A stretch of 64,000 nucleotides of DNA from Thermocaproicibacter melissae (lineage in GTDB: Bacteria > Bacillota > Clostridia > Oscillospirales > Acutalibacteraceae), in contig NZ_CP101827.1 in the NCBI RefSeq assembly GCF_024498295.1, positions 1,492,001-1,556,000 on the forward strand. The letters are read 5' to 3'. Below, piece by piece: positions 33,778-52,702 of this stretch. A program made the position numbers and the translations under genes. The notes beneath the pieces were generated by a model. That model did no database searches. It was not told the DNA's origin and worked only from the letters and a program-made list of their open reading frames with translations. Each line of letters opens with the position of its first letter. Position 1 is the stretch's first letter.

Positions 33778-33845
33778 CTTTGCGCATGGTATAATGTTGA
33801 AAGGTATATTCCTTTCTAAGGATAATCTTTAGCGGTGGTGTGACG

Positions 33846-34784
33846 ATGAAAGCCGGACGCAACAAAACAATTGATATTACCGTGGAAGACGGCAGACAAT
33901 ATCTGGACAGATGCCTGAGAATTTCTCAGGACGTTACCGTCAGCGACATCACGGATAAAACAATCCTCGGGGATTCTTTCGAGGTGCTGTCTCATTTTCC
34001 GAAGCAGTTTGTGGACCTGCTGATTGTCGACCCGCCGTATAATATTGATAAGGATTTTCACGGAAACAAGTTCAAAAAGACAACCGACGAAGACTACGCG
34101 GCATTTACGGAAAAGTGGATTCAGGCGGTTCTCCCGACGCTCAAGGAGACTGCCTCCATTTACGTCTGCTGCGATTGGAAGTCCTCGCCGGTGATCGGAT
34201 TGACCTTGAAAAAATACTTCCATATCCAGAACCGCATCACATGGCAGCGCGAAAAAGGCCGCGGCGCGCTGAACAACTGGAAAAACGGCATGGAAGACAT
34301 CTGGTTCGCGACCATGTCGCGCTCCTATGTTTTCAACGTAGAAGATGTGAAGATGCGGCGCAGGGTAATCGCGCCGTACCGCGTAGACGGCAAGCCGAAG
34401 GATTGGGAAGAAACAGAAGAAGGCAATTTCCGAAATACATATCCGTCAAACTTCTGGGATGACATTTCCATTCCTTACTGGTCCATGCCGGAAAATACGG
34501 CACATCCGACGCAAAAGCCGGAGAAATTGCTGGCGAAGCTGATTTTAGCCAGCTCAAACCCCGGCGATATCGTGCTGGATCCGTTCCTCGGCTCCGGAAG
34601 CACGTCGGTGACGGCAAAAAAACTAAAGCGGCATTACGTCGGCATTGAGCAGAACGAACAATACTGTGTCTGGGCGGAAAAGCGGCTTGAAATGGCGGAA
34701 ACAGACTCCTCGATTCAGGGCTATGCTGACGGTGTATTCTGGGAGAGAAACACAAGCGGACTTCAAAAGAAAAAGAAGAAATGA
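33846..34784 (+). CDS. Site-specific DNA methyltransferase (beta class)
   Basis: A 312-residue DNA amino-methyltransferase. The catalytic DPPYNIDKDFHG near residue 63 comes before the SAM-binding part (HPTQKPEKLLAKLI and DPFLGSGSTSVTAKKL near 240-260), the beta-class order; DPPY points to N6-adenine. The region between, about 115-215, is the variable target recognition domain. The start is ATG 33846, six bases after an in-frame GTG. The next gene, 30 bp downstream, is a likely restriction endonuclease, so this is probably the protecting half of a type II restriction-modification pair. The recognition sequence cannot be read from the protein. Confidence 0.9.
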   Translation: MKAGRNKTIDITVEDGRQYLDRCLRISQDVTVSDITDKTILGDSFEVLSHFPKQFVDLLIVDPPYNIDKDFHGNKFKKTTDEDYAAFTEKWIQAVLPTLKETASIYVCCDWKSSPVIGLTLKKYFHIQNRITWQREKGRGALNNWKNGMEDIWFATMSRSYVFNVEDVKMRRRVIAPYRVDGKPKDWEETEEGNFRNTYPSNFWDDISIPYWSMPENTAHPTQKPEKLLAKLILASSNPGDIVLDPFLGSGSTSVTAKKLKRHYVGIEQNEQYCVWAEKRLEMAETDSSIQGYADGVFWERNTSGLQKKKKK

Positions 34785-34814
34785 CGTCGTTTTCTCTCAT
34801 TGAGGAGGAGTAAG

Positions 34815-35978
34815 GTGTATAACAAGTCGAAAATCGACCGGCTCATTTCGTTCATCACGGAACGAAACGGCATCGGCGACAAGGAATTGCTTGCCGACGC
34901 TGTTCAGCGGGAGTTCGGGCTAGAACAAGACCGCAAATTGTATTATTGCGATGACTTCGCCCTCCGTTTCAGCAAATCCGAAAAGAAACGAATGAGCAAT
35001 ACGGTTTTGGCACTCTCGGCGCTGCAAAAATATGACGACAGGCCGGTAATCGTATGCATCGTTTCAAAAGCCACGAATTATCTGATGCTTGCGAATACGA
35101 CGTTTTTGCAGAAGATAAGCCATTCTTCCCAGAACCTGCGGGTCGACAATATCCGAGGCAGCTTCAACGGCAGCGATATTCTGGAATTTGTAGACGGAAT
35201 CGAGAATTCGCCCGAAAATTTTCCCGAATTATTCGCCATGCACAGTTCTTTTACCTTTCAAGAGAATCTGGAGCGCTTGGTGGAAGCGACAAACGGCATC
35301 GCCGGCAGAGCCAGAAAATTCGTAATCGGCGATTTGGAAAAGAAACGGATTGCGGAGGCTCCGGAACGCGCCAAAGCATTTCTAGAGTCCGCGGAATACC
35401 GGGATTTGCAGGAGGATTTGAACCGGCGCGTCGCTTCCGTACAAAAAGAAATCGCACTTGCCGCCGGTATCGACAACGTCAACATCCGCGGCCGCATCAT
35501 TGAATATCTGATTACGGAGACTGACCCTTCCCTCAAAGACCAAATCATCAAGGCGCTCCAAGAGAATACTCCTCTCCCGCCCTTTCGGACGGAAGATAAA
35601 CTCGGCGATTACAAAAAAATCTATCCGAATTTCCACACGGAAACCGATATAAAAACCAAAGTGCGTTTTTTGGACGGAAATCCGAAGGCCTATAACATTG
35701 ATAAGTTGCTGGAATTCTTAGCAGCGGAGAAGTCGGTTTATCTAATTTATCTTCTCGGAATCAATCCCGACGGTTCCGTCACTGCCCGCCTGTGTTCTGT
35801 TTTTGATGCCCGCCTGCTCCGTGCGACGCATCTGATTCGTCACTGGTCCGGCAGAAACTCCCGCGGTGTCGCCCAATTTTACGGAACGGCATTGTCCGAC
35901 ATCCTTCAGGATAAAGAACCGCCTCGGCTGGATATGCAACAATCCAGAGAATACCTTGAGAAGCTAATGGAATCATAA
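34815..35978 (+). CDS. Probable type II restriction endonuclease
   Basis: A 387-residue protein without a family I can name with certainty. It is hydrophilic, and its position directly behind a lone beta-class methyltransferase is the main reason for the call. A possible PD-(D/E)xK-like element is ETDIKTKVRF near residue 275, followed by NPKAYNIDKLLEFLA, SVYLIYLLGI and a conserved-looking HWSGRNSRGVAQF. The start is GTG 34815 with GGAGGAG just before it; a TTG at 34800 lies in front of that site. An intrinsic terminator closes the pair. An alternative is another nuclease or an accessory protein. Confidence 0.6.
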   Translation: MYNKSKIDRLISFITERNGIGDKELLADAVQREFGLEQDRKLYYCDDFALRFSKSEKKRMSNTVLALSALQKYDDRPVIVCIVSKATNYLMLANTTFLQKISHSSQNLRVDNIRGSFNGSDILEFVDGIENSPENFPELFAMHSSFTFQENLERLVEATNGIAGRARKFVIGDLEKKRIAEAPERAKAFLESAEYRDLQEDLNRRVASVQKEIALAAGIDNVNIRGRIIEYLITETDPSLKDQIIKALQENTPLPPFRTEDKLGDYKKIYPNFHTETDIKTKVRFLDGNPKAYNIDKLLEFLAAEKSVYLIYLLGINPDGSVTARLCSVFDARLLRATHLIRHWSGRNSRGVAQFYGTALSDILQDKEPPRLDMQQSREYLEKLMES

Positions 35979-37172: not shown

Positions 37173-37272
37173 GGGAAAATCCACGCTCCCGCATGGGGAG
37201 CGACATGCAGCGCAAGGGCGTGCATCTTGTCAGTCTCAAGATTTCAATCCACGCTCCCGCATGGGGAGCGAC
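37173..37272 (-). CRISPR. Terminal (oldest) part of the type I-C array: two repeats, one spacer
   Basis: A full repeat (37241-37272) and a last repeat (37173-37204) enclose a 36-base spacer. In crRNA orientation the last repeat is changed in its final five or so bases (TTTTCCC instead of TTGAAAT), the usual sign of the leader-distal end. So this fragment is the true old end of the array whose main block starts at 40001; the two are separated by inserted DNA. Confidence 0.93.
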
Positions 37273-37411
37273 CCGACAAACCAGCTAGATATGCCCAGTT
37301 CAAAAGATCAGCTATCTCAATCAATAGTTTTTGTTGAGAATCAGAAACAGCACAACCATTGATCTTTTGATATTCTTGTTTCAGTTGTTCGATGGTGATA
37401 GGATACTTCAT
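37244..37411 (-). pseudogene. Small phage-like gene cut off by a CRISPR repeat
   Basis: An ATG with GGAGGGTGAT upstream opens MKYPITIEQLKQEYQKI and continues as a plausible soluble helical protein for 46 codons up to the repeat border at 37273; the last nine codons and the stop come from the repeat itself. The original 3' end is therefore missing. I recognise no named family; the AT-rich codon use and the neighbouring tape-measure fragment suggest a phage or mobile element origin. Confidence 0.5.
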
Positions 37412-37540
37412 AATAATCACCCTCCATAAAAAAGCAGCATTAATGTAAAATTTTTTGGTTCATATTAAATAATAGCATGACTTTTTCAAAGTTCAAGACC
37501 AATACAATACCAATAATGGTGCAGTAAATTTATATTTTTG

Positions 37541-37568
37541 TTGACAAATTGAACCATATATATACAAT
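37541..37568 (+). promoter_or_regulatory. Promoter of the embedded DUF3862-like gene
   Basis: TTGACA, 16-bp spacer, TACAAT, 20 bp ahead of the start codon and its AAAGGAGG site. The embedded gene thus carries its own promoter, opposing array transcription. Confidence 0.65.
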
Positions 37569-37588
37569 AAAGGAAAGGAGGAATTTCC

Positions 37589-38131
37589 ATGGATATAGGT
37601 TTTGTTCTTGGAATTTGTTCGTTTTTAGGATTTATTGCTTGCTTAATCTGGCTTATTGTTATGGTTGCTCAAAAGCGAAGCAAGAGATACAGTTTAATTG
37701 GAATTGGAGTATGCTTTGTTTTATTTATTGTCGCACTTTCCATTCCATCCAGTAAAGAGAGTGTTACAGTAAATACAAAAGCACAGTCAAGCAGTATTGC
37801 AATATCGAATAGAATGGCATCATCAAGCAGTACAGAATTTACAAATAATGACGATTATACAGCATACACAGAGCAGGAAGATTTGAGCAAAAACGAAGAA
37901 TATATTACGAAAGACGAATACGACAAAATAAAATCTGGAATGACATACGCACAAGTCGTAAAAATCGTGGGAAGCGAAGGAGAAGCATATTATGAGTCTG
38001 GAGATAAAGGAACGGATGATTATGTAGTTAATTATATGTGGCATGGGAAAGACGGATTCAGTACAGCATCTATTACTTGCACGGGAAAGAGCCAAAAGGT
38101 GATAGCAAAGTCACAGGGCGGCCTGAAATAA
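37589..38131 (+). CDS. Small membrane protein with DUF3862-like domain, inside the array
   Basis: A 180-residue protein. Two membrane segments lie at about residues 5-28 and 35-50, followed by a Ser-rich linker and a C-terminal domain with ITKDEYDKIKSGMTYAQVVK and IVGSEGEAYYESG, the pattern of DUF3862/SmpA-like small beta domains. Function is unknown. Such proteins occur on phages and chromosomes of Firmicutes; with a tape-measure fragment next to it, a phage-encoded surface or superinfection role is thinkable but unproven. The gene is complete and has a promoter, ribosome site and terminator. It lies in DNA between two CRISPR repeats, antisense to crRNA transcription. Confidence 0.75.
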   Translation: MDIGFVLGICSFLGFIACLIWLIVMVAQKRSKRYSLIGIGVCFVLFIVALSIPSSKESVTVNTKAQSSSIAISNRMASSSSTEFTNNDDYTAYTEQEDLSKNEEYITKDEYDKIKSGMTYAQVVKIVGSEGEAYYESGDKGTDDYVVNYMWHGKDGFSTASITCTGKSQKVIAKSQGGLK

Positions 38132-38133
38132 CA

Positions 38134-38170
38134 AAATGCGGGGTGAAATTGATCACTCCGCATTTGCTTT
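38134..38170. terminator. Hairpin between convergent embedded genes
   Basis: AAATGCGGGGTG pairs with CACTCCGCATTT (one mismatch) and is followed by GCTTTATTT, between the DUF3862-like gene and the tape-measure fragment. Confidence 0.6.
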
Positions 38171-38906
38171 ATTTGGCTAAATGGTATTGCCTTGCAATCT
38201 CAGTGTTTCCGCGCTCAGCAGACTCGGCAATAATGCGGTCATCGGTATAGAGAGCAATTCTCATGTTACGGATTGCTTCTTCAAGTCTATCTATTCGCGC
38301 AAGAATTTGCTCAGTATAATCTGTTCCGCTGTTATTGCTTTTAGAATTACGCAGAATTCCCTGTGCGATCTGTGAGAACACTTGGTCGTTTAGAGGAAGT
38401 GCAGCTTCGGGGCCTGCTTCACCTATACCGATAATAGATGGAGAATTGAACAAAGCACCTTTTGCGTGCCACGATACGCTTAGAGTTGGAATTCCGGGAA
38501 GGCCAAGCCAGCTCAGCGCATCTGCAGCCCAGCTAGGAGTTTCATATGTAATTGAGAAATGTGGCAGTTTAATTTTTGGCAGGCTGATCTGAGGCCATTG
38601 AATATTTTTGAATGGGGCTTTTAAGCTTTCAATGGCATCTTTCGCTAACTTATCCCACTTTTCCTTAGTGAACCACGGTTTCACGTTGTTATTCCACCAT
38701 TTTACTGGTCCCCAAGAATTCCAACCAGATTGAAATTCATTCCATTTTTGCTGAACGCCCTTTAGTGCTCCGCCAACCTTGTTCTGAATCTCATTCCAAT
38801 TGATGGCTACCGTTGAGACAAGACCTGCACCGCCAGCAATTATCATTCCGATTCCAAGAGGTAGCATAACCCCAGTACAAACAAGTAAAACGCCCAGAGC
38901 AAGCAA
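38169..38906 (-). pseudogene. Phage tail tape-measure protein, C-terminal fragment, inside the array
   Basis: About 245 codons of the C-terminal part of a phage tape-measure protein, the ruler that sets siphovirus tail length. The block IIGIGEAGPEAALPLNDQVF is the family hallmark; before it are a hydrophobic segment (LPLGIGMIIAGGAGLV) and Trp-rich helical repeats, and the end is a coiled-coil tail. Full-length relatives have several hundred to over a thousand residues, so most of the N-terminal part is missing. The reading frame runs straight into the CRISPR repeat at 38907, where the phage sequence stops. It is transcribed in the same direction as the array. Confidence 0.88.
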
Positions 38907-39004
38907 ATTTCAATCCACGCTCCCGCATGGGGAGCGACCTTATACATTGCAGACAATGCCTTTGTAGAAAGTATTTCAATCCACGCTCCCGCATGGGGAG
39001 CGAC
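38907..39004 (-). CRISPR. Isolated part of the type I-C array: two repeats, one spacer
   Basis: Two intact 32-base repeats (38907-38938 and 38973-39004), identical to those of the main array and in the same orientation, enclose a normal 34-base spacer. The unit stands between two long stretches of non-array DNA, 1,634 bp on one side and 996 bp on the other. Confidence 0.95.
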
Positions 39005-39075
39005 CGGAACGGGATTTCATCGGCTGGCTGCTGAAACAGCGCGGAATTATTGACGAGTTGAAACAGGACGATTGA
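39005..39075 (+). pseudogene. C-terminal gene remnant beginning at a CRISPR repeat
   Basis: Directly after the repeat a frame reads RDFIGWLLKQRGIIDELKQ and stops at 39073-39075. It has no start of its own and the base composition changes after the stop, so it looks like the 3' end of a phage-type gene whose front part is missing. The fragment is too short to name. Confidence 0.4.
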
Positions 39076-39112
39076 AAAATCAAAGTCAAGATATACTTGA
39101 TGAGAAAATATC

Positions 39113-39820
39113 TCAACTTAATGTATCAATTTTGTATTTTTGCCGGTAAAAGGCTTTTGCAAAACTCAATATGCACAGTATAAATGCAGCAAATATTCCT
39201 ACAAAGCCACAGACGAATCTCCACTCATGCCCAGAAAGCTGGAAACCGGTCACTATTCTGATCGGATTAAAAATATTCCACGAGTTGAATCGCAAAAATC
39301 GTCCTATATAAATTGCTATTCCACCCAAAATTGAGCATATAAAACGTAATAGTAGATTTTTACCTTTCCCATATTTATTTATGAGGATGTTTTCAAAAAT
39401 CATTTCTGAATTAATTCCATTCATAATTCCATATAAAATCCCTAAAACAATTATGACTCCTTTTGACCATAATAGAAGATTATCTGAATATATGATCTGA
39501 GGCTGTTCAACATAGGGAATACCTTTTACTACTTGAAAAAAAGCATCTCCTGTAAAATGAACAATATCTGTTGCCATATAAAACGTATTGGGCCAGAAAA
39601 TAATCCAAAGTAATGCCCATAATATCCAAAAACGCTTATGATTACTTAAAGAAGAAACAGTAAATTGTGAAAAAAGCACAGGTAAAAATGATAAAAAGGC
39701 ATTCCAAACTAACATAATAAAAAGGCCGCCATTATCTGATAAATACCATAGTACAAAATTGCATAGCGAATACAGTATAAAGAAAATTAAATGCGGCCTT
39801 GAATGCTGAACTTTTATCAT
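39113..39820 (-). CDS. DUF1361 family membrane protein, inside the array
   Basis: A 235-residue integral membrane protein with about seven hydrophobic segments. The family mark is FWPNTFYMATDIVHF near residue 78 (DUF1361 proteins carry LPNxxYxxTDLxH), followed later by GIAIYIGRFLRFNSWN. Function is unknown. The gene is complete, with GGAGAGG upstream of the ATG, and is clearly richer in A and T than its chromosomal surroundings, as are the other parts of the inserted DNA. It lies between CRISPR repeats and reads in the direction of array transcription. Confidence 0.8.
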   Translation of the reverse strand: MIKVQHSRPHLIFFILYSLCNFVLWYLSDNGGLFIMLVWNAFLSFLPVLFSQFTVSSLSNHKRFWILWALLWIIFWPNTFYMATDIVHFTGDAFFQVVKGIPYVEQPQIIYSDNLLLWSKGVIIVLGILYGIMNGINSEMIFENILINKYGKGKNLLLRFICSILGGIAIYIGRFLRFNSWNIFNPIRIVTGFQLSGHEWRFVCGFVGIFAAFILCILSFAKAFYRQKYKIDTLS

Positions 39821-40000
39821 ACCGACCTCTCCTTATTTGTTTCATTTTACTACTTAAAAAATATATAGTAAAGAGGTCAGAGGATCATAAATCCACTGAC
39901 CTCCTGAAATTATCGAAATAGACTACTTTAATCCAGTCTTGTCCGTTGGAACCAATTTATTTTTCACAATTCGTCTTAATTTCCCGGACTTGACTAATGA
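39821..40000. other. AT-rich tail of the second inserted segment
   Basis: Non-coding. It holds a hairpin (GAGGTCAG..CTGACCTC, about 39873-39903) upstream of the DUF1361 gene and then about 95 bases up to the first repeat of the main array with nothing that I recognise. Confidence 0.4.
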
Positions 40001-43000
40001 ATTTCAATCCACGCTCCCGCATGGGGAGCGACTCGGCATCGGCCCGCTTCCACAAAATTGACAATCAAATTTCAATCCACGCTCCCGCATGGGGAGCGAC
40101 CCTTCTTCCTCGGCGTCTTTTTCTCTGTTTTTTCTATTTCAATCCACGCTCCCGCATGGGGAGCGACCCGCCCGCTCTTTTAGCGGGCGGTTATCAGAGA
40201 GATTTCAATCCACGCTCCCGCATGGGGAGCGACTCCCAGTTCTTGACTTTCTTTTTAAGAGCATCAGTAATTTCAATCCACGCTCCCGCATGGGGAGCGA
40301 CATTTCGCGGCGGTCGTTATAGCCGATATGGGCCACAGAATTTCAATCCACGCTCCCGCATGGGGAGCGACGGTTGCATACATGCCATGCTTTCTTATTG
40401 AAGGCAATTTCAATCCACGCTCCCGCATGGGGAGCGACCCGGATTCCTGTTTGAAGATTCAACCCCAACAGTATTTCAATCCACGCTCCCGCATGGGGAG
40501 CGACTTGTCGCAATTGTCATTCATCTTTGGCAGACAAATATTTCAATCCACGCTCCCGCATGGGGAGCGACTTGTCGCAATTGTCATTCATCTTTGGCAG
40601 ACAAATATTTCAATCCACGCTCCCGCATGGGGAGCGACGCTCACCTGGATGGCATAGGCGGTTTCAGAGGGCTCATTTCAATCCACGCTCCCGCATGGGG
40701 AGCGACTTTTTTTGAGATAAAAAATTAGTAATTATTAAATTTCAATCCACGCTCCCGCATGGGGAGCGACCAAATATAATCCCCTTCCGCACTAGCAAGC
40801 ATTATATTTCAATCCACGCTCCCGCATGGGGAGCGACAGGATGAAACTGAATATACAGTAATGGTGGTAAGATTTCAATCCACGCTCCCGCATGGGGAGC
40901 GACGCTAAGAACACCCACATCATTTGTTCTGCTCACATTTCAATCCACGCTCCCGCATGGGGAGCGACTTAGCACCATCTTCGTACTGCTTTGCTACATC
41001 GAGATTTCAATCCACGCTCCCGCATGGGGAGCGACTATCCAATACCATCAGTGATTGGTTCCAATTGTATTTCAATCCACGCTCCCGCATGGGGAGCGAC
41101 GGGAACAAATCGAGCGGTTTGCCCGCAGGTCAGCATTTCAATCCACGCTCCCGCATGGGGAGCGACTCGTTATATTTAGTCCCAAATGTGCCGGTCAGCA
41201 TTTCAATCCACGCTCCCGCATGGGGAGCGACAAAACAGATTGAACTAATTTTTATGCCCAAAAGGGCTTTCAATCCACGCTCCCGCATGGGGAGCGACGT
41301 GCCGAATCGCGTTTTTGTCGCCCTCAAACTCAACTTTCAATCCACGCTCCCGCATGGGGAGCGACGCGGCACATAATAACGGGCGACTGACTGTCAGAAT
41401 TTCAATCCACGCTCCCGCATGGGGAGCGACCAAATATAATCCCCTTCCGCACTAGCAAGCATTATATTTCAATCCACGCTCCCGCATGGGGAGCGACAGG
41501 ATGAAACTGAATATACAGTAATGGTGGTAAGATTTCAATCCACGCTCCCGCATGGGGAGCGACGCTAAGAACACCCACATCATTTGTTCTGCTCACATTT
41601 CAATCCACGCTCCCGCATGGGGAGCGACTTAGCACCATCTTCGTACTGCTTTGCTACATCGAGATTTCAATCCACGCTCCCGCATGGGGAGCGACTATCC
41701 AATACCATCAGTGATTGGTTCCAATTGTATTTCAATCCACGCTCCCGCATGGGGAGCGACGGGAACAAATCGAGCGGTTTGCCCGCAGGTCAGCATTTCA
41801 ATCCACGCTCCCGCATGGGGAGCGACTCGTTATATTTAGTCCCAAATGTGCCGGTCAGCATTTCAATCCACGCTCCCGCATGGGGAGCGACAAAACAGAT
41901 TGAACTAATTTTTATGCCCAAAAGGGCTTTCAATCCACGCTCCCGCATGGGGAGCGACGTGCCGAATCGCGTTTTTGTCGCCCTCAAACTCAACTTTCAA
42001 TCCACGCTCCCGCATGGGGAGCGACGCGGCACATAATAACGGGCGACTGACTGTCAGAATTTCAATCCACGCTCCCGCATGGGGAGCGACCAAATATAAT
42101 CCCCTTCCGCACTAGCAAGCATTATATTTCAATCCACGCTCCCGCATGGGGAGCGACAGGATGAAACTGAATATACAGTAATGGTGGTAAGATTTCAATC
42201 CACGCTCCCGCATGGGGAGCGACGCTAAGAACACCCACATCATTTGTTCTGCTCACATTTCAATCCACGCTCCCGCATGGGGAGCGACTTAGCACCATCT
42301 TCGTACTGCTTTGCTACATCGAGATTTCAATCCACGCTCCCGCATGGGGAGCGACTATCCAATACCATCAGTGATTGGTTCCAATTGTATTTCAATCCAC
42401 GCTCCCGCATGGGGAGCGACGCGGCACATAATAACGGGCGACTGACTGTCAGAATTTCAATCCACGCTCCCGCATGGGGAGCGACCTGTATTATATATAA
42501 TTTTCCGGCGGGGGGCGCGGATTTCAATCCACGCTCCCGCATGGGGAGCGACTGGAATTGTTTGTAATTTCTCTACTTCGTTTTCTGTATTTCAATCCAC
42601 GCTCCCGCATGGGGAGCGACGTTTCACATGAGCTGCGGACACACCCAAGAAATTATTTCAATCCACGCTCCCGCATGGGGAGCGACCTCATTCCGACGGT
42701 CATGTGACAGTCAATCGAACATTTCAATCCACGCTCCCGCATGGGGAGCGACATGCCTTCTCCCTATCGCTCATTTCTGCCAGGGTAATTTCAATCCACG
42801 CTCCCGCATGGGGAGCGACCCGGTTGTTATCCTGGCAGAAAGAAGGATTTGTATATTTCAATCCACGCTCCCGCATGGGGAGCGACCGTGAATTCAACCA
42901 CGGGAGGAAGCTGGCGTGATATTTCAATCCACGCTCCCGCATGGGGAGCGACCTCCGCTCCTGGGGAGGTTCATGCGCTTTGTATAAATTTCAATCCACG

Positions 43001-44545
43001 CTCCCGCATGGGGAGCGACGAAAGAATCGCTGTGTGATGATTTTAAATCTGTACTATTTCAATCCACGCTCCCGCATGGGGAGCGACGAAGGTGGATGCC
43101 TACCTGTGTCAGTCATAGATATTTCAATCCACGCTCCCGCATGGGGAGCGACCTCATTCCGACGGTCATGTGACAGTCAATCGAACATTTCAATCCACGC
43201 TCCCGCATGGGGAGCGACGCATGCAACACGAATTTAGCCAATGAGATAGGCGATTTCAATCCACGCTCCCGCATGGGGAGCGACGACAAGACATTGAGAT
43301 ATTACGTAAGTGTTCAGAAATTTCAATCCACGCTCCCGCATGGGGAGCGACACTAACGCAACGTTAACCAATGCAGACTTAATGATTTCAATCCACGCTC
43401 CCGCATGGGGAGCGACCCCCTTTAGGTCCTCCACCAGCCCCAAACATCATATTTCAATCCACGCTCCCGCATGGGGAGCGACCAGGAGTACTCCACCAAC
43501 CACACATATTCCAAAAGATTTCAATCCACGCTCCCGCATGGGGAGCGACCAACCCCATTTCTAACAAAAGCGGGATGAACCTTATTTCAATCCACGCTCC
43601 CGCATGGGGAGCGACATTGTTCCCCAGCCGTCTGTTTTGACCGCATCCAAATTTCAATCCACGCTCCCGCATGGGGAGCGACCCTGACCGTTTCATCCTG
43701 CATGGCACAACCGCAGATTTCAATCCACGCTCCCGCATGGGGAGCGACCACGGCAGACGGAAAAGGGAATCCAATCGATACCATTTCAATCCACGCTCCC
43801 GCATGGGGAGCGACGAATCAGCTTAGCGACCAGCGTAGTTTCAGCCGTATTTCAATCCACGCTCCCGCATGGGGAGCGACATGATTTCGACGTTTCTACG
43901 GCGTTTGCGAATAGATTTCAATCCACGCTCCCGCATGGGGAGCGACCCGGATTGTCCCGTTGACGCCCTTCAGCGCGGACGATTTCAATCCACGCTCCCG
44001 CATGGGGAGCGACAGTAGGCAATCGATATTCAAAATCTTTCCGCCAATTTCAATCCACGCTCCCGCATGGGGAGCGACCGGAATAATAGCCGGCTCATTT
44101 TAATATTATTGCCAATTTCAATCCACGCTCCCGCATGGGGAGCGACTTACTCGCACGTAAAGCAGCTGACATCCCGGAAATTTCAATCCACGCTCCCGCA
44201 TGGGGAGCGACGCGAAAAGCTGACAATTAAGTGAGGCGATAAAAATATTTCAATCCACGCTCCCGCATGGGGAGCGACGTCTTTGGTCATCCCAATCCCA
44301 CGTAGAGCTTCACATTTCAATCCACGCTCCCGCATGGGGAGCGACCCGGGAAGGGCTTTGGCTTGGTAGACGCGAAATTTATTTCAATCCACGCTCCCGC
44401 ATGGGGAGCGACGCTTTCCGTGGCACATTACGCGGACAGTATTCAAATTTCAATCCACGCTCCCGCATGGGGAGCGACTTGCGCAGCAGCCCTGCAAATC
44501 CGGGCTGGACAGTATTTCAATCCACGCTCCCGCATGGGGAGCGAC
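40001..44545 (-). CRISPR. Type I-C CRISPR array, main block (69 repeats, 68 spacers)
   Basis: I counted 69 copies of a 32-base repeat. On the plus strand it begins ATTTCAATCCACGC and ends ATGGGGAGCGAC; in crRNA sense it is the type I-C repeat GTCGCTCCCC..TTGAAAT, whose inner CGCTCCC/GGGAGCG stem is the Cas5 processing hairpin. Spacers are mostly 33-36 bases (range 32-38). Only two repeat types deviate, by A to C in the last crRNA base (at 41267, 41334 and copies). Array growth is at the 44545 end, beside the leader and cas2. Many spacers are duplicated; by my count about 50 of the 68 are distinct. Confidence 0.98.
40771..42453 (-). repeat. Tandem duplication of a ten-unit spacer block
   Basis: The 660-bp block 40771-41430 (ten spacers with their repeats) is repeated exactly at 41431-42090, including the deviant repeats. 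A third copy from 42091 has the first five spacers and then jumps straight to the tenth (42421-42453), so four spacer-repeat units have been lost from it. This pattern is expected from unequal crossing-over between repeats, not from spacer acquisition. Confidence 0.96.
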
Positions 44546-44722: not shown

Positions 44723-45013
44723 TCATACAATTAATGGGTCCTCTACGTTAAAAGTTGGTTTTGCTCCAAAATGCTCAATTTTTGTTCTATAATGATCACC
44801 AAGATAGTAAAAACGTAGGCTGTCCTTTTCAGGATTAATCACCTGCTCAAGCTTATGTTTAACTGTGCAACACAGAGCAGGATCCATAACACACTCAAAA
44901 ACTGAATTCTGTACACGCTGGCCATAGTTGACACAGATTTTTGCTACTTTTCTAAGTCGTTTCTTGCCAGCTTCCGTCTCCGTATTCACATCATACGTAA
45001 TCAGAACCAACAT
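44723..45013 (-). CDS. cas2: CRISPR-associated endonuclease Cas2
   Basis: Cas2 is the dimer that bridges two Cas1 dimers in the spacer integration complex. The 96-residue protein begins MLVLITYDVNTET with the conserved aspartate after the first strand, then KRLRKVAKICVNYGQRVQNSVFEC, the typical type I-C Cas2 text, and ends with the ferredoxin-like fold intact. I chose ATG 45013; a TTG one codon earlier is also in frame. It is the last gene of the cas operon, nine bases after cas1 and next to the leader. Confidence 0.96.
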   Translation of the reverse strand: MLVLITYDVNTETEAGKKRLRKVAKICVNYGQRVQNSVFECVMDPALCCTVKHKLEQVINPEKDSLRFYYLGDHYRTKIEHFGAKPTFNVEDPLIV

Positions 45014-45022
45014 CAATATCGC

Positions 45023-46054
45023 CTACTTCCATAAAAAAGGTGGGTAAGCGTCTAGGTCTCCCCTCAGATATCTCGCCAGCAAAAGTGCTTGTGAATAAGG
45101 AACAAGCCCCCATTCAATTTTTTCGTTGAGCATAGGATGTGTAATAAATTCTTGCTTCCTCCCTTGCCAAGCAATTAATATCTTTTTCCGAGTGTCATCG
45201 GCAATCAATACTGCTCCATTCTCTTTCTGAACAAATCCATCGCTACTGACCTGACGAGTATTAATGAGAGTCAGGACAAATCGGTCTGCAAAAATTGGGC
45301 GAAATTCTTCCATCATATCTAACGCAAGAGACATGCGCCCTGGACGGTCCCGGTGAAGGAACCCAACATATGGATCAAGTCCTACGGTCTCGAGCGCAGC
45401 AGCAGTGTCGTGGGCTAGCAGTGTATAAACAAACGACAAAAGAGCATTTACATTATCCATAGGTGGACGTCGGTTCCGGGTACGAAAGAAAAATTGTTCT
45501 TTTTGTTGCAGGATCAAATCGTCTAAAACAGAGAAATAACATGTGGCGGCTTCTCCTTCGATGCCTCGTAGCTCATCAAGTGTTTTCGTAGCTGAAATCT
45601 GTTTAAGTGATTCAGCTATCAGGCTGGATACATGCTTTAGCTTCTCTGTGTTCAACCGTAGGGCATAATCGCGTGCTGCCCTCTCGATAACCCACCGAGA
45701 ATTAAACAACTTTCCCGTAATCATTCCCTTCGCAATGGCTAAACTTTTTTCTTCACTGTCTGAGACTCGGTACTGTTCTTTCCGCAATAATACATTTCCC
45801 TGTTTCATGCCGCAGACCCGTGCAAGAAACCGTCCGTGCATCGTAAGAAAACTCAGAGCTACGCCGCGCTCGGCACAGGCACCCATCAAAGCCGGACTGG
45901 CGCCTGTGTATCCGAACGCTACAATTCCGTCGAGATTATGCAGTGGAATTCTCCGCAGTTCATTTCCGCCTTTTTGGATGACTATATTTTCACCGTCCAA
46001 TGACAGGTACGCATCTGGAGTTGTCACATATAGTGTGTTTCCGAGAATTCTCAT
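45023..46054 (-). CDS. cas1: CRISPR-associated endonuclease Cas1 (type I-C)
   Basis: Cas1 is the integrase that inserts new spacers. The 343-residue protein has an N-terminal beta domain (MRILGNTLYVTTPDAYLSLDG) and a helical catalytic domain with the metal ligands in RGIEGEAAT (glutamate), GFLHRDRPGRMSLALDMMEEFRP (histidine, then aspartate/glutamate). The start ATG overlaps the cas4 stop codon (ATGA), so translation is coupled. The frame is open for 23 more codons within cas4 but there is no ribosome site for them. Confidence 0.97.
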   Translation of the reverse strand: MRILGNTLYVTTPDAYLSLDGENIVIQKGGNELRRIPLHNLDGIVAFGYTGASPALMGACAERGVALSFLTMHGRFLARVCGMKQGNVLLRKEQYRVSDSEEKSLAIAKGMITGKLFNSRWVIERAARDYALRLNTEKLKHVSSLIAESLKQISATKTLDELRGIEGEAATCYFSVLDDLILQQKEQFFFRTRNRRPPMDNVNALLSFVYTLLAHDTAAALETVGLDPYVGFLHRDRPGRMSLALDMMEEFRPIFADRFVLTLINTRQVSSDGFVQKENGAVLIADDTRKKILIAWQGRKQEFITHPMLNEKIEWGLVPYSQALLLARYLRGDLDAYPPFLWK

Positions 46055-46725
46055 AGGGTTTCCCCCAGTCGCTTTTGAACATATTCCGCCGCAGAACTTA
46101 CCCGGTAAAGTCTTGGCAGGCACAAATCTTTAAGCGAGCAGGCGTTGCAACTTTTACTTGGTTTTACGCGCGGAGTATATTTGCGTTTGTAAAGTTCATG
46201 CATTTCCGTCAGCAGTTGTGTTACTCTTTTTCGAAGGGGATCGCCCAACACGACCGCAGTTCGCCGTGCTGTTTCACCATAATAGATGTATGCTTTTTCG
46301 ATACGGTCGCACAGCAGCATTTCTTCCAGACACATTGCCTGGCAACAAAGTTGCAAGTTGTCGGCGTCATTTTCTTTCGGCCGACCCCGCTTGTATTCAA
46401 CCGGGACGGGAAGCCATTTGCCTTCCCGTCCGGCAAGTTCTATTCCTTTAGGCGACGCATGGAATTCTACAACATCACAAACTCCGCTTACTCCCAGCTT
46501 GCGCGAAAAAACTGCCATCCCGCGTGAAATAATTCGATCCACACGTTTCTCCGTAAAGAATGGATCATGTGCGTTGTCGTGAAGAATATGTCCTTCCACA
46601 GTGCGAAGATTTTCATCCCATTGCATTTCGATGTATGCCAACGCCCACTGACGGCGGCAGAAAGCAAAATGCTGGAGGCCTGAGAGATTCAGATAATCCT
46701 CTTCCTTATATTCCATTGTAAACAT
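46051..46725 (-). CDS. cas4: CRISPR-associated exonuclease Cas4
   Basis: Cas4 trims and PAM-selects prespacers for Cas1-Cas2 in type I-C. The 224-residue protein has a RecB-type nuclease core with the QHFAFCRRQWAL opening (first cluster cysteine near residue 23), the aspartate of GVCDVVEF and the VPVEYKRGRPKE lysine motif, then QLCCQAMCLEEM, and ends with CNACSLKDLCLPRLY, giving the three C-terminal iron-sulfur cysteines. It overlaps the cas7 end by 20 bases. Another ATG three codons later is possible. Confidence 0.96.
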   Translation of the reverse strand: MFTMEYKEEDYLNLSGLQHFAFCRRQWALAYIEMQWDENLRTVEGHILHDNAHDPFFTEKRVDRIISRGMAVFSRKLGVSGVCDVVEFHASPKGIELAGREGKWLPVPVEYKRGRPKENDADNLQLCCQAMCLEEMLLCDRIEKAYIYYGETARRTAVVLGDPLRKRVTQLLTEMHELYKRKYTPRVKPSKSCNACSLKDLCLPRLYRVSSAAEYVQKRLGETL

Positions 46726-47566
46726 CGGGCGTCAACCCGTCCAGAGAATCTACGGTGATATCATAGTAATCATCCAGCCTAAACGGAAGGCCTCCGCTGG
46801 GGATTCGCTTGCCTTCTTTCGGCTTAACATGTAGGGTGCGGTGAACCTTAGCTGATGAATACTGACCGGATTTGCAGTTATGTTTCCACCAATAAACCCG
46901 GCAGACTTCCATGCTTCCATCGGGTCTTGCGGAAGAGCAGTCATTTTCAAACAGCGTAATTAATGCCTTATGGATGTATTCCGCATCTTCTTCGGCGAAG
47001 CCGGTCTTTTCCGCGAGCTGGCAGTTAATGCTGCCGTAAAACACATAAACGCCAAACGGAACGGTGTGCTTCATGCCCATGGTGTCAGGGGATTTTTTAT
47101 CTCCTGTTACGCTGTTGACACTCTTCGTAATCTTGATGCTCGAAATATCGATCGGCTGAACGCTGAACGCGGGATGAATCGAAACCGGCCCCCGTACTCC
47201 AACCGAAACGTCCTCCCCTCTGAAGGCGAACACCTGGCCGAAGCTTCTCACGTCAATCCATGTTTTGCACGCAATCTGTGCAAACTTTTCCGGGTCTTTT
47301 TCCTTTTTTAATTCCTCAATCGAGTCGGCGCGCTCCCGCAGGCTTTTAAAAGAATCCGTGCGCTTATCATCGGACTGGACAAAGACTGGCAGGCCCATGT
47401 CGAGCAGGCGGTTACGGATTTTCCGCTTGATGCAGACATCTGAAATTTCTCCGTAGCCGTCATAGGTTTCGCGAGGACGGTTTCCGTTCAGAGGGTCACC
47501 GTTGGGGTTTGCGTTTTTTACGGAAAGAACCACCGCAAAATCAATTTTGTTCGCAAGAATACTCAT
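46706..47566 (-). CDS. cas7: Cascade backbone protein Cas7 (Csd2, type I-C)
   Basis: Cas7 subunits line up along the crRNA and form the backbone of Cascade. The 286-residue protein begins [28 protein letters not shown], the family opening, followed by GYGEISDVCIKRKIRNRL and the central VGVRGPVSIHPAFSVQPI region, with the late DNDCSS-type block (FENDCSSARPDG). The RAMP (RRM-like) fold of the family is expected. It overlaps the cas8c stop by four bases and the cas4 start by 20. Confidence 0.97.
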   Translation of the reverse strand: MSILANKIDFAVVLSVKNANPNGDPLNGNRPRETYDGYGEISDVCIKRKIRNRLLDMGLPVFVQSDDKRTDSFKSLRERADSIEELKKEKDPEKFAQIACKTWIDVRSFGQVFAFRGEDVSVGVRGPVSIHPAFSVQPIDISSIKITKSVNSVTGDKKSPDTMGMKHTVPFGVYVFYGSINCQLAEKTGFAEEDAEYIHKALITLFENDCSSARPDGSMEVCRVYWWKHNCKSGQYSSAKVHRTLHVKPKEGKRIPSGGLPFRLDDYYDITVDSLDGLTPDVYNGI

Positions 47567-49509
47567 TGTTTTTCCTCTCCTTCGCTATTCATCATGGTTT
47601 TTTCTCGGTTGGCTTCATACTCTTCATGGAATTTCTGCATCTGGCAGGCATAGCCCAAAAGATAGAGCTCATTCAGCGGTTCATTGGTGAAATCCTCTTT
47701 GGCGATTTTTGAAATGACCTCATTCAATTCCTCGCGATAACGAGCCCCTCTTTTGCCAAGCCTCTGCAGATACGGTGAAAGCGACTCATATAATGTTTTC
47801 CACATCCTTGCGGGGTGCTGGCTGAAAGCCATTTGCATCCGTTCCGCATTGGTGCTTCGCTTTTCGCCCTGCAAGTTGAGCGCATAGCTTTCCAGCTGCT
47901 GCGCATAGGCAAGCGCCCGCCCAAAAAGATAATTCCGGTCGGTTTCTTCGGTATCTAACGCCATTTTCCATCTCTCCTTGTACTCATCTGTTTTCAATAT
48001 TCCTAAATTTTCCCTGTCGTTGTGATATTTCCGAATCAGCGCGCATGCAACGGCAAGCGTTTTTCCATTGTCATTTTTGTCAAGCCCCGCCGGATTCGAT
48101 GCGCGCCTTGCTGCGTTAAGCATGATGTCCTGCGGCAAGGCCGCCCGATCGACAATGCACGGCAAAAGACGCTGCACGGTACTTTTTTTCAGCTTGTCGT
48201 TTATTTGTCTTCCGTAAGCCGCTTCTGCTATGGTCTCCGGCGACGGTGCGCCGATAAACGGAATCGGTTTTGCATTTTTTCCAAATGCCTTTTTCGGGAA
48301 TTCTTCAAAGCGCCACCGGCAAGTTTCATGCCAGAACCGGATTCGGTCCACAAGGTCCTTCTCCGGCATTTCGCGGTAGTAAAACACCGAAAGCCGTCCG
48401 GGCGTAGCAGAATCCAGTCCGAGGATGCAGGCTTCTTCGCCGCCTTTCAGCTTACCGCCGTACCCCGCGATGGCGTTGCGGAATCTTTGGGCAAAATCTT
48501 CGCCTGTCGTAATAACGGGATTATCCGGTTCAAGGTCGAACAAAACATCCAGCGAATTTTCGCAGAGGTCCGGCGTCTTTGCGCCGTCTGTCCGCCATGA
48601 AAGAATCACTTGATCCCCGTTAAAATACGCCTGCCGCTGGATAAGCCATTTCAGCGCATTGTGTGCCTTCTCGTTTGTTTCCCTTCCGATGGAGTAGGCC
48701 TGCGACGGCGTTTCAAATCTGCCCCGGTAGGTGAATCCGGATGTATCGTTTGCGGAAATCAGCTTTGCCCCGTCGCCGGGACGCCGGATATACTTGGGGC
48801 TAAGCTCGGAAACCGGCATTTTTTTGCCGAGTATATAGCAGAAGTCCGTTTCCGTGGACAAGCTGTTTTGGTAATCGATGTAACTCTGCCAGACCGATGG
48901 GTCCTCCCAAATGCGGCTGTGAAGATCTTCCGAACCATCTGCCGGAACCACCTGAAACCGAACAAATGCATTAGCTTGGTCGCCCGCAACCGCTTTGAAA
49001 ATCGGCGGTGTATCATCGCCGCCCTTCCATTTTTCCGGCATATTGCCCGATTCATCGACATACAGAACGCCGGCGGCGATGAGGTCATGCATCAGGCAGC
49101 CTTTTTTCAGGTATTTCAGCACAGCTTTCACCTTCGGGTGGGCATAAGGTGAACTGCACCATTCGGAAAGCTGAGCAATATATTCCGGGTAACGCTCTTC
49201 CTTCAATTTTCGGTATTGTATATAGTCACCGGAAAGATAAGTCAGATTGTCGAACAAAGGGTGCGCAACAGGCTTGCTTGTCCGTGCCGCCGATTTTTCC
49301 GTGCAGGGAATCAGCGTCGTGCGCTCCCGCTTGTCCTCCAAAACTCGAGCCGTGCGAAAGCAGCCTTCCGTGTCGATCGTCGCTTCAATCTGAGCCTGCT
49401 GCGTCATGTGGTAAATCGGCATCAGAGGCGTTTGATTTTCATCCTCCACAACACCGACGAGGCTCTTGCAGTTTTCGTAGGTATCATACAGTTTTTGCAT
49501 CCATCCCAT
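47563..49509 (-). CDS. cas8c: Cascade large subunit Cas8c (Csd1)
   Basis: Cas8c recognises the PAM and helps open target DNA in type I-C Cascade. The 648-residue protein matches Csd1 in length and wording: [15 protein letters not shown] at the start, the [20 protein letters not shown] stretch, [37 protein letters not shown], and [19 protein letters not shown]. In type I-C an internal start in the 3' part of this gene is known to make the small subunit Cas11c; candidate methionines are present in the last 140 codons (for example [13 protein letters not shown]), but I did not settle which is used. It overlaps cas5 by 26 bases. Confidence 0.95.
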
Positions 49510-50224
49510 TGTATCCGGCCTCCTCTGCTAGAAAATCACAACAGGTCAGATTTTTACCCTCAGAAAATTGTTTCGGTTTCTGCTTTTTCACCGTGCGGAT
49601 AACCGGACACTCCTCCGGCCGGCAAAACTCAATGACGCCGTTTCGCATTTTCGGGTACCAGAACCGAGCCTGCAAAAGATTCTTGCCGTTTTCGTCCGGA
49701 TAAGTGAACCCGTGGAACATCAAACCGAAAGAAAGCTCCGGCAGGTCGTCGAATGCACCCTTTCCGCTTCCGAATTCACACGGCTCTACGTATGCCTGGC
49801 ATTCTCGCGTTCCGAGAAAAACGTCGCGTCTGCCGCCGCATTCAATCATGCGCTTGGCAATAAAATAGTGCTTGTTCTCGTTGCGGTCATTCGCGAGGTC
49901 CGGCCGGTTTTCATTCCATTCGAAATGTGCCTTCACTTGGTAGGCGACATCGGTCAGATAGGTATAGATGGAAAGCGTATTGCCTCCCCCGTAATTGATT
50001 GGCCGGATGCCTTCGGAGCGGCTTGTGATGGGCTTTAAGACACGTACCGCATCGATGTACCACATCAATGTAGGCTTCCAATAGATGGATTCCGTCACCC
50101 CCTTGAGTGCCTGATAAGTCGGCACCTGATAGCTGCACTTTTCACCGCCTGCCCGCGTGATGGGATCGCTGAAAAGCGCCATTCTCCCATAGACAAGAAA
50201 ACTTACGCTGTTGCTGTATTTCAC
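49484..50224 (-). CDS. cas5: Cas5c/Cas5d crRNA-processing nuclease
   Basis: In type I-C, which has no Cas6, Cas5 cuts the repeat hairpin and stays on the 5' handle. The 246-residue protein begins [21 protein letters not shown], then [22 protein letters not shown], the conserved segment that carries the catalytic tyrosine in Bacillus relatives, and [12 protein letters not shown], holding the Lys-His pair of the active site. It overlaps the cas8c start by 26 bases and follows cas3 by 21 bases. Confidence 0.94.
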
Positions 50225-50245
50225 ACCGATTCTCCTTTCCGCTGC

Positions 50246-52702
50246 TTAAACAATCAGTGAATCCATTTCTTCGCGTTGCATCTGCACTCCTAAATCCATG
50301 CTGTAAAATTCCTTTCGAAGCACCATGACGCCGACATCCTCGATGATGTCAATGGCACGAAATTCTTCGAGTTGACTTCTTTCATAGGGAAATAAATTGA
50401 CAGAATAACGCTGCGCCTGCCTGAGAAGCTTCGGAAGAACAGACAAATCCGGTTTTGCGTAGAGTTGCTGAATCAAGTCCTCTCCTGCCCCGTAAGGCAC
50501 GATGACATCGGTGCCGCTGTTGTCAATTGCCTGAAAAATCCTTCCTGCCGTCGCATACGCCTGATGAATTGGGTGTGCCGGAAGGCTGACTCTGTGCTCC
50601 CTAGTGAACTTCTTTGCCAGAGAGTTAACCGACAGAAGGTCGAACAAGCTTGTCGGTGCGAAAAGAGCCGGGTCGTCTTTTTCCGTTACGGGGTAATTCA
50701 ACTGTGCCCTCTGCAAATCAAAATAGTAATGATAGTATCGTCTTACCGCCTCCGGCGAAAGCAGCTCCTCATGAAACTGTGCGGAGTTCCCGCGGAAATC
50801 CTGAAGGACTTGGTCGGCAGCTTCCTGCGCCCTTTGGATATCCTGCAAACGGGAAAGATTTTCTTCCGCACATCGCACCAGGAACACATCGCGGCAGGTT
50901 GATTCCCCGTGGCGGTTGCAGCGCCCGGCCGCTTGAGCGGCGCTGTCAAGCCCGGCAAAAGAACGCACCACACACTGGAACGACAAATCCACTCCCGCTT
51001 CAATCAACTGCGTGCTGACACAAATCATCCGATTCGCCCGGGGTCTTCCGTCCGCAAGCCTGCTCTGAATTTCTCGAATCAAATCCATGCGGTGCTGGGC
51101 GCATTGGCTGGTAGTCAGGCAAAAAATCGGAATACGCTCTTCCGGAGGCTGTTGATTCATGCGTTCCGTCAGTGAGCGATACACTGCTTTCGCCGCAGCT
51201 TTTGTGTTGAAAACCATAAGGAGATTATCACAAAGCGCCAGCCGCTCCAGCGCAAAGTCCGCCAGCTGCTCCGCAGACAGCGGGCCGTCAGATGTTTTGT
51301 CGACGGTTCGGGTGCGGCGGAAGGCAGCAAAGGTTTCCTCCAGCCGGCTTGTCATCTGCGAGGGCTCACCGAACAAAAGCGGCACCGGAATTTCCTCCGA
51401 TTCCGGCTGTGTGGCTGTGCACAGCACTACGGAGCAGTTGCAGGCATAAGCGAGGAAGTTCAAAGCGGCATTGAGCATGTCCGTGCATTTGACCGGGAAC
51501 GCCTGAAATTCATCCAAAATAATCACAGAGTTTGCCAAGCTGTGCATCCTGCGGGCACAGGCGGAACGGCCGTCAAACAGTGTGTTGAGAAACTGCACCG
51601 CTGTTGTCAAAATCATCGGTGTGTTCCACCGCTCCGTAAGCAGCCGATACCGCGCCGCTACCTTCGCATCATCCGTGTCAACTACTACGTCGCTATGATG
51701 CTCGAGCAGTATCGTATCGTCGTGAATTTTCAGCGCCTTGCGAATTTCTTCGGCGTTTTGATCCAAAATGCTTTTATAAGGAGCGATATAAAAAATGCGC
51801 TCTTTGCCGTTCTGTTTTGCACAGTTTAGGGCATAGCGCAAAGAAGCCATTGTTTTCCCGGAGCCGGTAGGCACAGAAAGGCGGAAAATACCCGTAGCAT
51901 GACGGCTGAAAGCATAGCATTGATCGGAAATTTCGCGGCGTTTCCGATTGATTGGGGTATCTAGGGGAAAATTCTTCAAATGTTCTTCCAGATTTGCGGC
52001 AAGCCTACTCCAAAGCTCCGGCAAATTCGGTTCCGGTTCCGCTTTTTGCTGTGCTTCAAACAGGAATGTGTCATAGCGGTCAGCATCAATTAAGCAGCTA
52101 AACAAATATCTCTGAATGAGGCCAAGCATAAAGTAAAAAGTCTGATTCCTTGTCGCAGGCGGGATTTCTCCGCAGATATTGCGTATTTTTGTACAGAAAT
52201 TTGCTGTTTCCTTCTGTGCTTCTTGGAACAGCAAGGTCAGGCTCTCCCGAGGAATATCCCGAAAAAAGCCCTCCAACGCTTCTTCGTAATGAACTTCTTT
52301 TTCCGGCCAAGCACGGCGGTGAAGATTATCCGAAGCATCCACTCCGGTCACATCCGGCAGCCCGCTGTGGTGTGCACAGATCGCCGTCGCTAAAAATTCA
52401 GCCGTCAGTTTTTCAATCGCACTGTTACTTTCCCCCATCTGCAAACTGTATCTTGCGCCGCAGAATGAATGAGGGATTTTTCCACGCAGGGACTCGTTGC
52501 TTGTCTCTAAATACTGTTGAAACGCATTGGTCGCTTTTCCGCTGTCATGCAGCAGTCCAACAAGCCTTCCGAGCTTTGCCATCCCGATTTTTTCGCAGTA
52601 TTTTTCGCAAAGCCGCGCTGTTTTTTCGCTGTGCTCTGCCAATGTTTGTTCCCGGCGAGTAACGGGGTCAATATGCGCTAATATGACGGAGGAATTCATC
52701 AT
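50246..52702 (-). CDS. cas3: CRISPR-associated helicase/nuclease Cas3 (type I-C)
   Basis: Cas3 is recruited to Cascade-bound DNA, unwinds it and degrades it. The 818-residue protein has an N-terminal HD nuclease (AEHSEKTARL, LVGLLHDSGKA, ICAHHSGLPD) and a superfamily 2 helicase with Walker A SVPTGSGKTMASL, motif II ILDEFQAF in place of DEAH, the TATQP motif III, and late motifs STQLIEAGVDL and QAAGRCNRHG. The start ATG follows AAAAGGAGAG. It is the first gene of the cas operon, behind a consensus promoter. Confidence 0.97.
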   Translation of the reverse strand: MMNSSVILAHIDPVTRREQTLAEHSEKTARLCEKYCEKIGMAKLGRLVGLLHDSGKATNAFQQYLETSNESLRGKIPHSFCGARYSLQMGESNSAIEKLTAEFLATAICAHHSGLPDVTGVDASDNLHRRAWPEKEVHYEEALEGFFRDIPRESLTLLFQEAQKETANFCTKIRNICGEIPPATRNQTFYFMLGLIQRYLFSCLIDADRYDTFLFEAQQKAEPEPNLPELWSRLAANLEEHLKNFPLDTPINRKRREISDQCYAFSRHATGIFRLSVPTGSGKTMASLRYALNCAKQNGKERIFYIAPYKSILDQNAEEIRKALKIHDDTILLEHHSDVVVDTDDAKVAARYRLLTERWNTPMILTTAVQFLNTLFDGRSACARRMHSLANSVIILDEFQAFPVKCTDMLNAALNFLAYACNCSVVLCTATQPESEEIPVPLLFGEPSQMTSRLEETFAAFRRTRTVDKTSDGPLSAEQLADFALERLALCDNLLMVFNTKAAAKAVYRSLTERMNQQPPEERIPIFCLTTSQCAQHRMDLIREIQSRLADGRPRANRMICVSTQLIEAGVDLSFQCVVRSFAGLDSAAQAAGRCNRHGESTCRDVFLVRCAEENLSRLQDIQRAQEAADQVLQDFRGNSAQFHEELLSPEAVRRYYHYYFDLQRAQLNYPVTEKDDPALFAPTSLFDLLSVNSLAKKFTREHRVSLPAHPIHQAYATAGRIFQAIDNSGTDVIVPYGAGEDLIQQLYAKPDLSVLPKLLRQAQRYSVNLFPYERSQLEEFRAIDIIEDVGVMVLRKEFYSMDLGVQMQREEMDSLIV

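Follow-up and report, generated by a model that had tools for sequence, protein, structure and literature searches.

Gene-sized foreign DNA between intact repeats at the trailer end of a type I-C CRISPR array in Thermocaproicibacter melissae

The window analysed here, a 64,000-nt stretch of the Thermocaproicibacter melissae genome, contains a CRISPR array whose 73 repeats all have the same orientation and are absent from the rest of the genome (Table 1). The array belongs to subtype I-C, as indicated by the adjoining cas3, cas5c, cas8c, cas7c, cas4, cas1 and cas2 genes and by the repeat, GTCGC...ATTGAAAT. Because the cas genes lie on its right, the leader is placed on the right and the trailer on the left, and the array is read from right to left. 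Ordinary spacers measure 32–38 nt with a 32-nt repeat, in agreement with the first-pass annotation of this DNA. Counting from the trailer, the second and fourth gaps between repeats hold inserts of non-array DNA, referred to below as insert 1 and insert 2, while the first, the third and the other 68 gaps are ordinary. The array visibly recombines, as seen in a 660-bp block of ten repeat–spacer units that occurs three times in tandem at 40738–42357, the third copy being partial. Duplication also affects single spacers at 40505 and 42687. Beside the trailer, at 33840–35978, an N6-adenine methyltransferase-like gene (motif DPPYNI) is followed by a 392-aa ORF, and the two possibly form a restriction–modification pair.

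Table 1. Features of the array and its inserts, and of oversize gaps in related arrays. Positions refer to the window unless prefixed with a locus name.
Feature	Position	Strand	Remarks
Type I-C CRISPR array	37173..44545	-	73 repeats, 32 nt each, reverse complement ATTTCAATCCACGCTCCCGCATGGGGAGCGAC
Degenerate repeat, trailer-most	37173..37204	-
Intact repeat, left border of insert 1	37241..37272	-
Insert 1, phage-like DNA replacing a spacer	37273..38906		1,634 bp; single copy in genome
Small ORF, 3' end cut by repeat	37273..37411	-	start near 37411
Complete 180-aa gene	37589..38131	+	membrane anchor and BLIP/BamE/DUF3862-like domain
Phage tape-measure protein, cut at repeat	38169..38906	-	C-terminal 245 aa
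Intact repeat, right border of insert 1	38907..38938	-
Ordinary spacer separating the inserts	38939..38972	-	34 nt
Intact repeat, left border of insert 2	38973..39004	-
Insert 2, collinear with a mobile element	39005..40000		996 bp
Complete 235-aa membrane gene	39113..39820	-	DUF1361 (PF07099)
Terminal 33 nt of insert 2, candidate former spacer S2	39968..40000	-	missing from own-genome copy
Intact repeat, right border of insert 2	40001..40032	-
cas3-cas5c-cas8c-cas7-cas4-cas1-cas2	44723..52702	-	leader side; from cas3 (52702) to cas2 (44723)
Oversize gap in related array	L074:407-1066		594 bp between last two repeats; one complete 179-aa gene
Oversize gap in related array	L065:11381-12768		1,322 bp before outlying repeat; genes including a repressor-like one
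Oversize gap in related array	L084:1116-2942		1,763 bp before degenerate terminal repeat; phage ArpU/DUF1492-like gene

Insert 1 lies exactly between two perfect consensus copies of the repeat, as the first-pass annotation had stated. Its left border cuts the 3' end of a small ORF, and its right border cuts a phage tape-measure gene; both truncations had been read from the DNA earlier, and the second is now backed by matches of the 245-aa fragment to PHROG tape-measure families and, in two related genomes, to the C-termini of longer phage ORFs. The 3' end of the tape-measure gene is convergent with the 180-aa gene that lies within the insert. The description of the latter as a complete DUF3862-like gene with a promoter stands for its completeness and for a promoter-like site (11/12) at 37541, and a terminator-like hairpin follows at 38134–38165, but in a profile search DUF3862 falls under its cut-off and BLIP scores just over its own. 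The search of phage and prophage databases that had been proposed for insert 1 identified no collinear phage: beyond short tape-measure stretches, no DNA donor was found among phages, in IMG/VR, in the organism's own genome or in 300 genomes of the family. The base-exact borders of insert 1 are therefore established on the array side only.

Insert 2, which the earlier reading had overlooked, contains the end of a DUF6076 gene, the complete DUF1361 membrane gene and the end of a DUF6973 gene, and its donors can be traced. Positions 1–963 occur elsewhere in the same genome at 99.9% identity, with one mismatch (G000:C1:1863114-1864076; L006:9115-10077), positions 1–890 are present in Caproicibacter fermentans EA1, and positions 22–996 match a 3.6-kb uncultured Clostridia contig (CALLZZ010000459.1; L020) at 99.5%. 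The own-genome copy runs on to the left of the first base of the insert (...AAAATGG/CGGAACGG, where the slash marks the border) and the Clostridia contig runs on to the right of its last base (...CTAATGA/CTTAACAG), in neither case with a repeat. Because the donors continue past both ends and are free of repeats there, insert 2 represents one unbroken segment of an element, trimmed at the repeats with single-base precision. Judging from its genes, this element is one that carries DUF6076 and DUF6973 genes; a phage derivation, which holds for insert 1, is not demonstrated for insert 2. Homology to the own-genome copy stops precisely at the start of the terminal 33 nt, so that the part of insert 2 beside the leader-side repeat has no chromosomal match there.

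These donors bear on two ways in which non-array DNA could come to lie between repeats. One is a transposon or IS insertion, or the presence of three small separate arrays with their own leaders, either of which would give this arrangement. We reject both, and as a class they merit almost no weight: no transposase was found in the inserts, the donors show no boundary of an element where the inserts end, and the insert starts are unlike the leader that follows 44545. The other is that a phage or element bearing a single repeat integrated by repeat–repeat recombination and was then mostly lost, a route in line with the repeat-mediated integration that has been suggested for single repeat units of viruses (PMC8616872). 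This is very improbable overall and is rejected for insert 2, where the border is free of a repeat in both donors and the insert follows its donor collinearly instead of combining two sequences that meet at a single repeat.

Using the array as query, we retrieved about forty I-C-like arrays of the same bacterial family and screened them for oversize gaps. Three of them contain 0.6–1.8 kb of non-array DNA between repeats, in each case at the trailer end. Donors were sought for the L074, L084 and L065 inserts and none was found, so their exact borders are only putative, and the L065 and L084 structures could instead be outlying solitary repeats. Counting all five inserts in the four arrays, the joint chance of such a trailer bias is ~5e-7 under random placement, a bias that rests mainly on the window's array when L065 and L084 are left out. 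Its simplest reading is selection against interrupting the transcription of array parts further from the leader. The earlier suggestion of an array carrying gene-sized inserts is strengthened by the second insert with its donors and by these similar cases; the observation is confirmed and was, if anything, understated, with two oversize "spacers" lying one ordinary spacer apart.

Arrays and duplicated elements are difficult to assemble, and reads from the two might have been misjoined. We consider such an artefact most unlikely. Insert 1 sits inside a 1.94 Mb contig of an assembly that has only two contigs and is 99.97% complete, and it has no second copy from which it could be misjoined. Moreover, the two inserts are independent, each has base-exact repeat borders, and similar structures occur in independent genomes.

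Our preferred explanation, to which we assign a probability of about 0.5, is that each insert is a stretch of element DNA that took the place of part of the array through homologous recombination between two old spacers. The ancestral array would have held spacers S1 and S2, identically oriented and derived from sites ~1.0 or 1.6 kb apart in a single element. On re-entry of the element, crossovers in S1 and S2 would have exchanged the repeat or repeats between them for the element's intervening DNA, and the product, repeat–S1–element DNA–S2–repeat, would have borders exactly at the repeat ends. Since swaps of this kind would interrupt transcription of the array, they would persist only at the trailer end, with few spacers downstream. 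Insert 2 has the collinearity expected of a double crossover, with the element continuing beyond both of its ends (L006 on the left, L020 on the right). Repair after Cas3 attack, which the first-pass annotation had also listed among its otherwise sensible mechanisms, would not by itself set both borders exactly at repeat ends.

Recombination between spacers and their targets has been described for phages and CRISPR loci of staphylococci (Varble et al. 2019, cited in PMC8616872). As that work is represented in the citing paper, it resembles the process proposed here in that homologous recombination takes place between array and phage at spacer-length identity, but it moves CRISPR DNA into phage particles, whereas here element DNA has become fixed in the array.

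The spacers and PAMs provide a check on the recombination explanation. Searching with a contiguous stretch of the array as query, we found matches to five ordinary spacers, on both strands, within a single 1.9-kb stretch of a related genome (L052 8618-10529; G247:C1 853.6-855.5 kb). All five protospacers (5/5) have RAA on the plus strand of the window, that is, TTY on the crRNA-like strand; matches on both strands with a TTY PAM are as expected of primed adaptation. Among them are pairs of spacers that share an orientation and keep the order of their targets, for example those at 43749 and 44346, whose targets are 1.9 kb apart; the array thus demonstrably contains the kind of spacer pair that the recombination explanation requires. 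If both inserts had arisen purely by recombination between two normal spacers, almost all of the ends would be predicted to have a PAM, unless the elements involved had escaped through PAM mutations. None of the three testable insert ends has TTY at 32–38 nt: on the trailer side the inner TTY lies at 29/30 nt in insert 1 and at 39 nt in insert 2, and at the leader-side PAM position beyond the right end of insert 2 the donor L020 reads AAG. The two inserts depart from ordinary spacers both in length and, for insert 2, in the leader-side PAM of the donor. In the related arrays, an inner-end TTC is found at 33 nt in L065 and at 38 nt in L084, with none in L074. The first-pass annotation had looked for TTC alone at the left end of insert 1 and had taken its absence as an objection to spacer recombination; the motif has to be widened to TTY, and the objection survives this better definition. 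The missing PAM weakens the recombination explanation but does not refute it.

Other evidence on S1 and S2 comes from comparison with the donors and with other arrays. Mismatches to the donor are mildly over-represented in the final 33 nt of insert 2 (p = 0.01), and two of three donor breakpoints fall inside the terminal ~35 nt, a pattern expected of escape deletions; we regard both as weak hints of former spacers that recombined. Loss of the terminal 33 nt from the own-genome copy as an escape from self-targeting is disfavoured by the AAG PAM and remains a hint. Neither S1 nor S2 occurs as an ordinary spacer among ~2,000 spacers of related arrays and in ten genomes of the genus, a sample that does not cover other strains of the species, and spacers of the related arrays match the inserts at chance level relative to reversed controls. 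Recombination between old spacers keeps its lead because of the same-order spacer pairs, the tandem 660-bp block, the published spacer–target recombination and the mild mismatch excess at the terminal 33 nt.

The PAM result, together with the absence of S1 and S2 from the other arrays searched, leaves some room for a different origin, in which the I-C Cas1–Cas2 would have joined the ends of kilobase DNA to both sides of one repeat in the manner of a casposase. Gap repair would then copy the repeat, so that the repeat becomes the target-site duplication and the insert a giant spacer. Casposon integration by Cas1 yields an insert of kilobase size with the target directly duplicated on its two sides, and the structure here is alike in both respects; unlike in a casposon, the insert encodes no casposase, and the resident cas1–cas2 would have to act. 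Such a capture would account for perfect repeats on both sides with base-exact borders, requires neither prior spacers nor an inner-end PAM and so fits the missing TTY, and the cas1, cas2 and cas4 genes appear intact from their sequences. However, we did not find kilobase capture by Cas1–Cas2 in the literature consulted, and the donor shows AAG instead of TTY at the PAM-side end of insert 2. New spacers normally enter arrays at the leader, and inserts at the old end would imply that capture happened twice while the array was young. We therefore view long capture as a tentative and rather unlikely origin of the inserts, and it is doubtful that the resident type I-C Cas1–Cas2 occasionally acts like a casposase, inserting kilobase DNA with the repeat as target-site duplication. 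Recombination between two old spacers remains the reading that we prefer.

The structure itself is of a known though rare kind, given the published precedent of CRISPR locus F in Sulfolobus solfataricus, where an 899-bp fragment of a pNOB8-like plasmid lies between two repeats (PMC4390879, section 4.5). In both loci ~1 kb of mobile-element DNA separates two repeats in an array that is otherwise regular, and here, too, a mobile-element fragment is flanked by two intact repeats. Locus F is a single, archaeal and leaderless case that "partially matches" its plasmid, whereas the array described here is a bacterial type I-C array with intact-looking cas genes, two inserts, complete genes and base-exact collinear donors. 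What is new is therefore the bacterial setting, the presence of two inserts in one array, the complete genes, the base-resolved borders and the recurrent trailer-end pattern.

Arrays are usually regarded as closed ledgers of 30–40 nt records. The trailer-end inserts found here and in a few related arrays suggest that arrays sometimes exchange whole genes with the parasites that they record. If old spacers serve as homology arms, an array would in addition give its target elements a place where their genes can land, and statistics of array length, terminal spacers and "gaps" would call for reinterpretation. If instead the integrase is responsible, a casposase-like activity would survive in present-day systems, and arrays could capture whole genes, beyond 35-nt spacers. 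With either reading, the mechanism can be put to the test in a laboratory I-C strain, since the borders are fixed and the donor is known.
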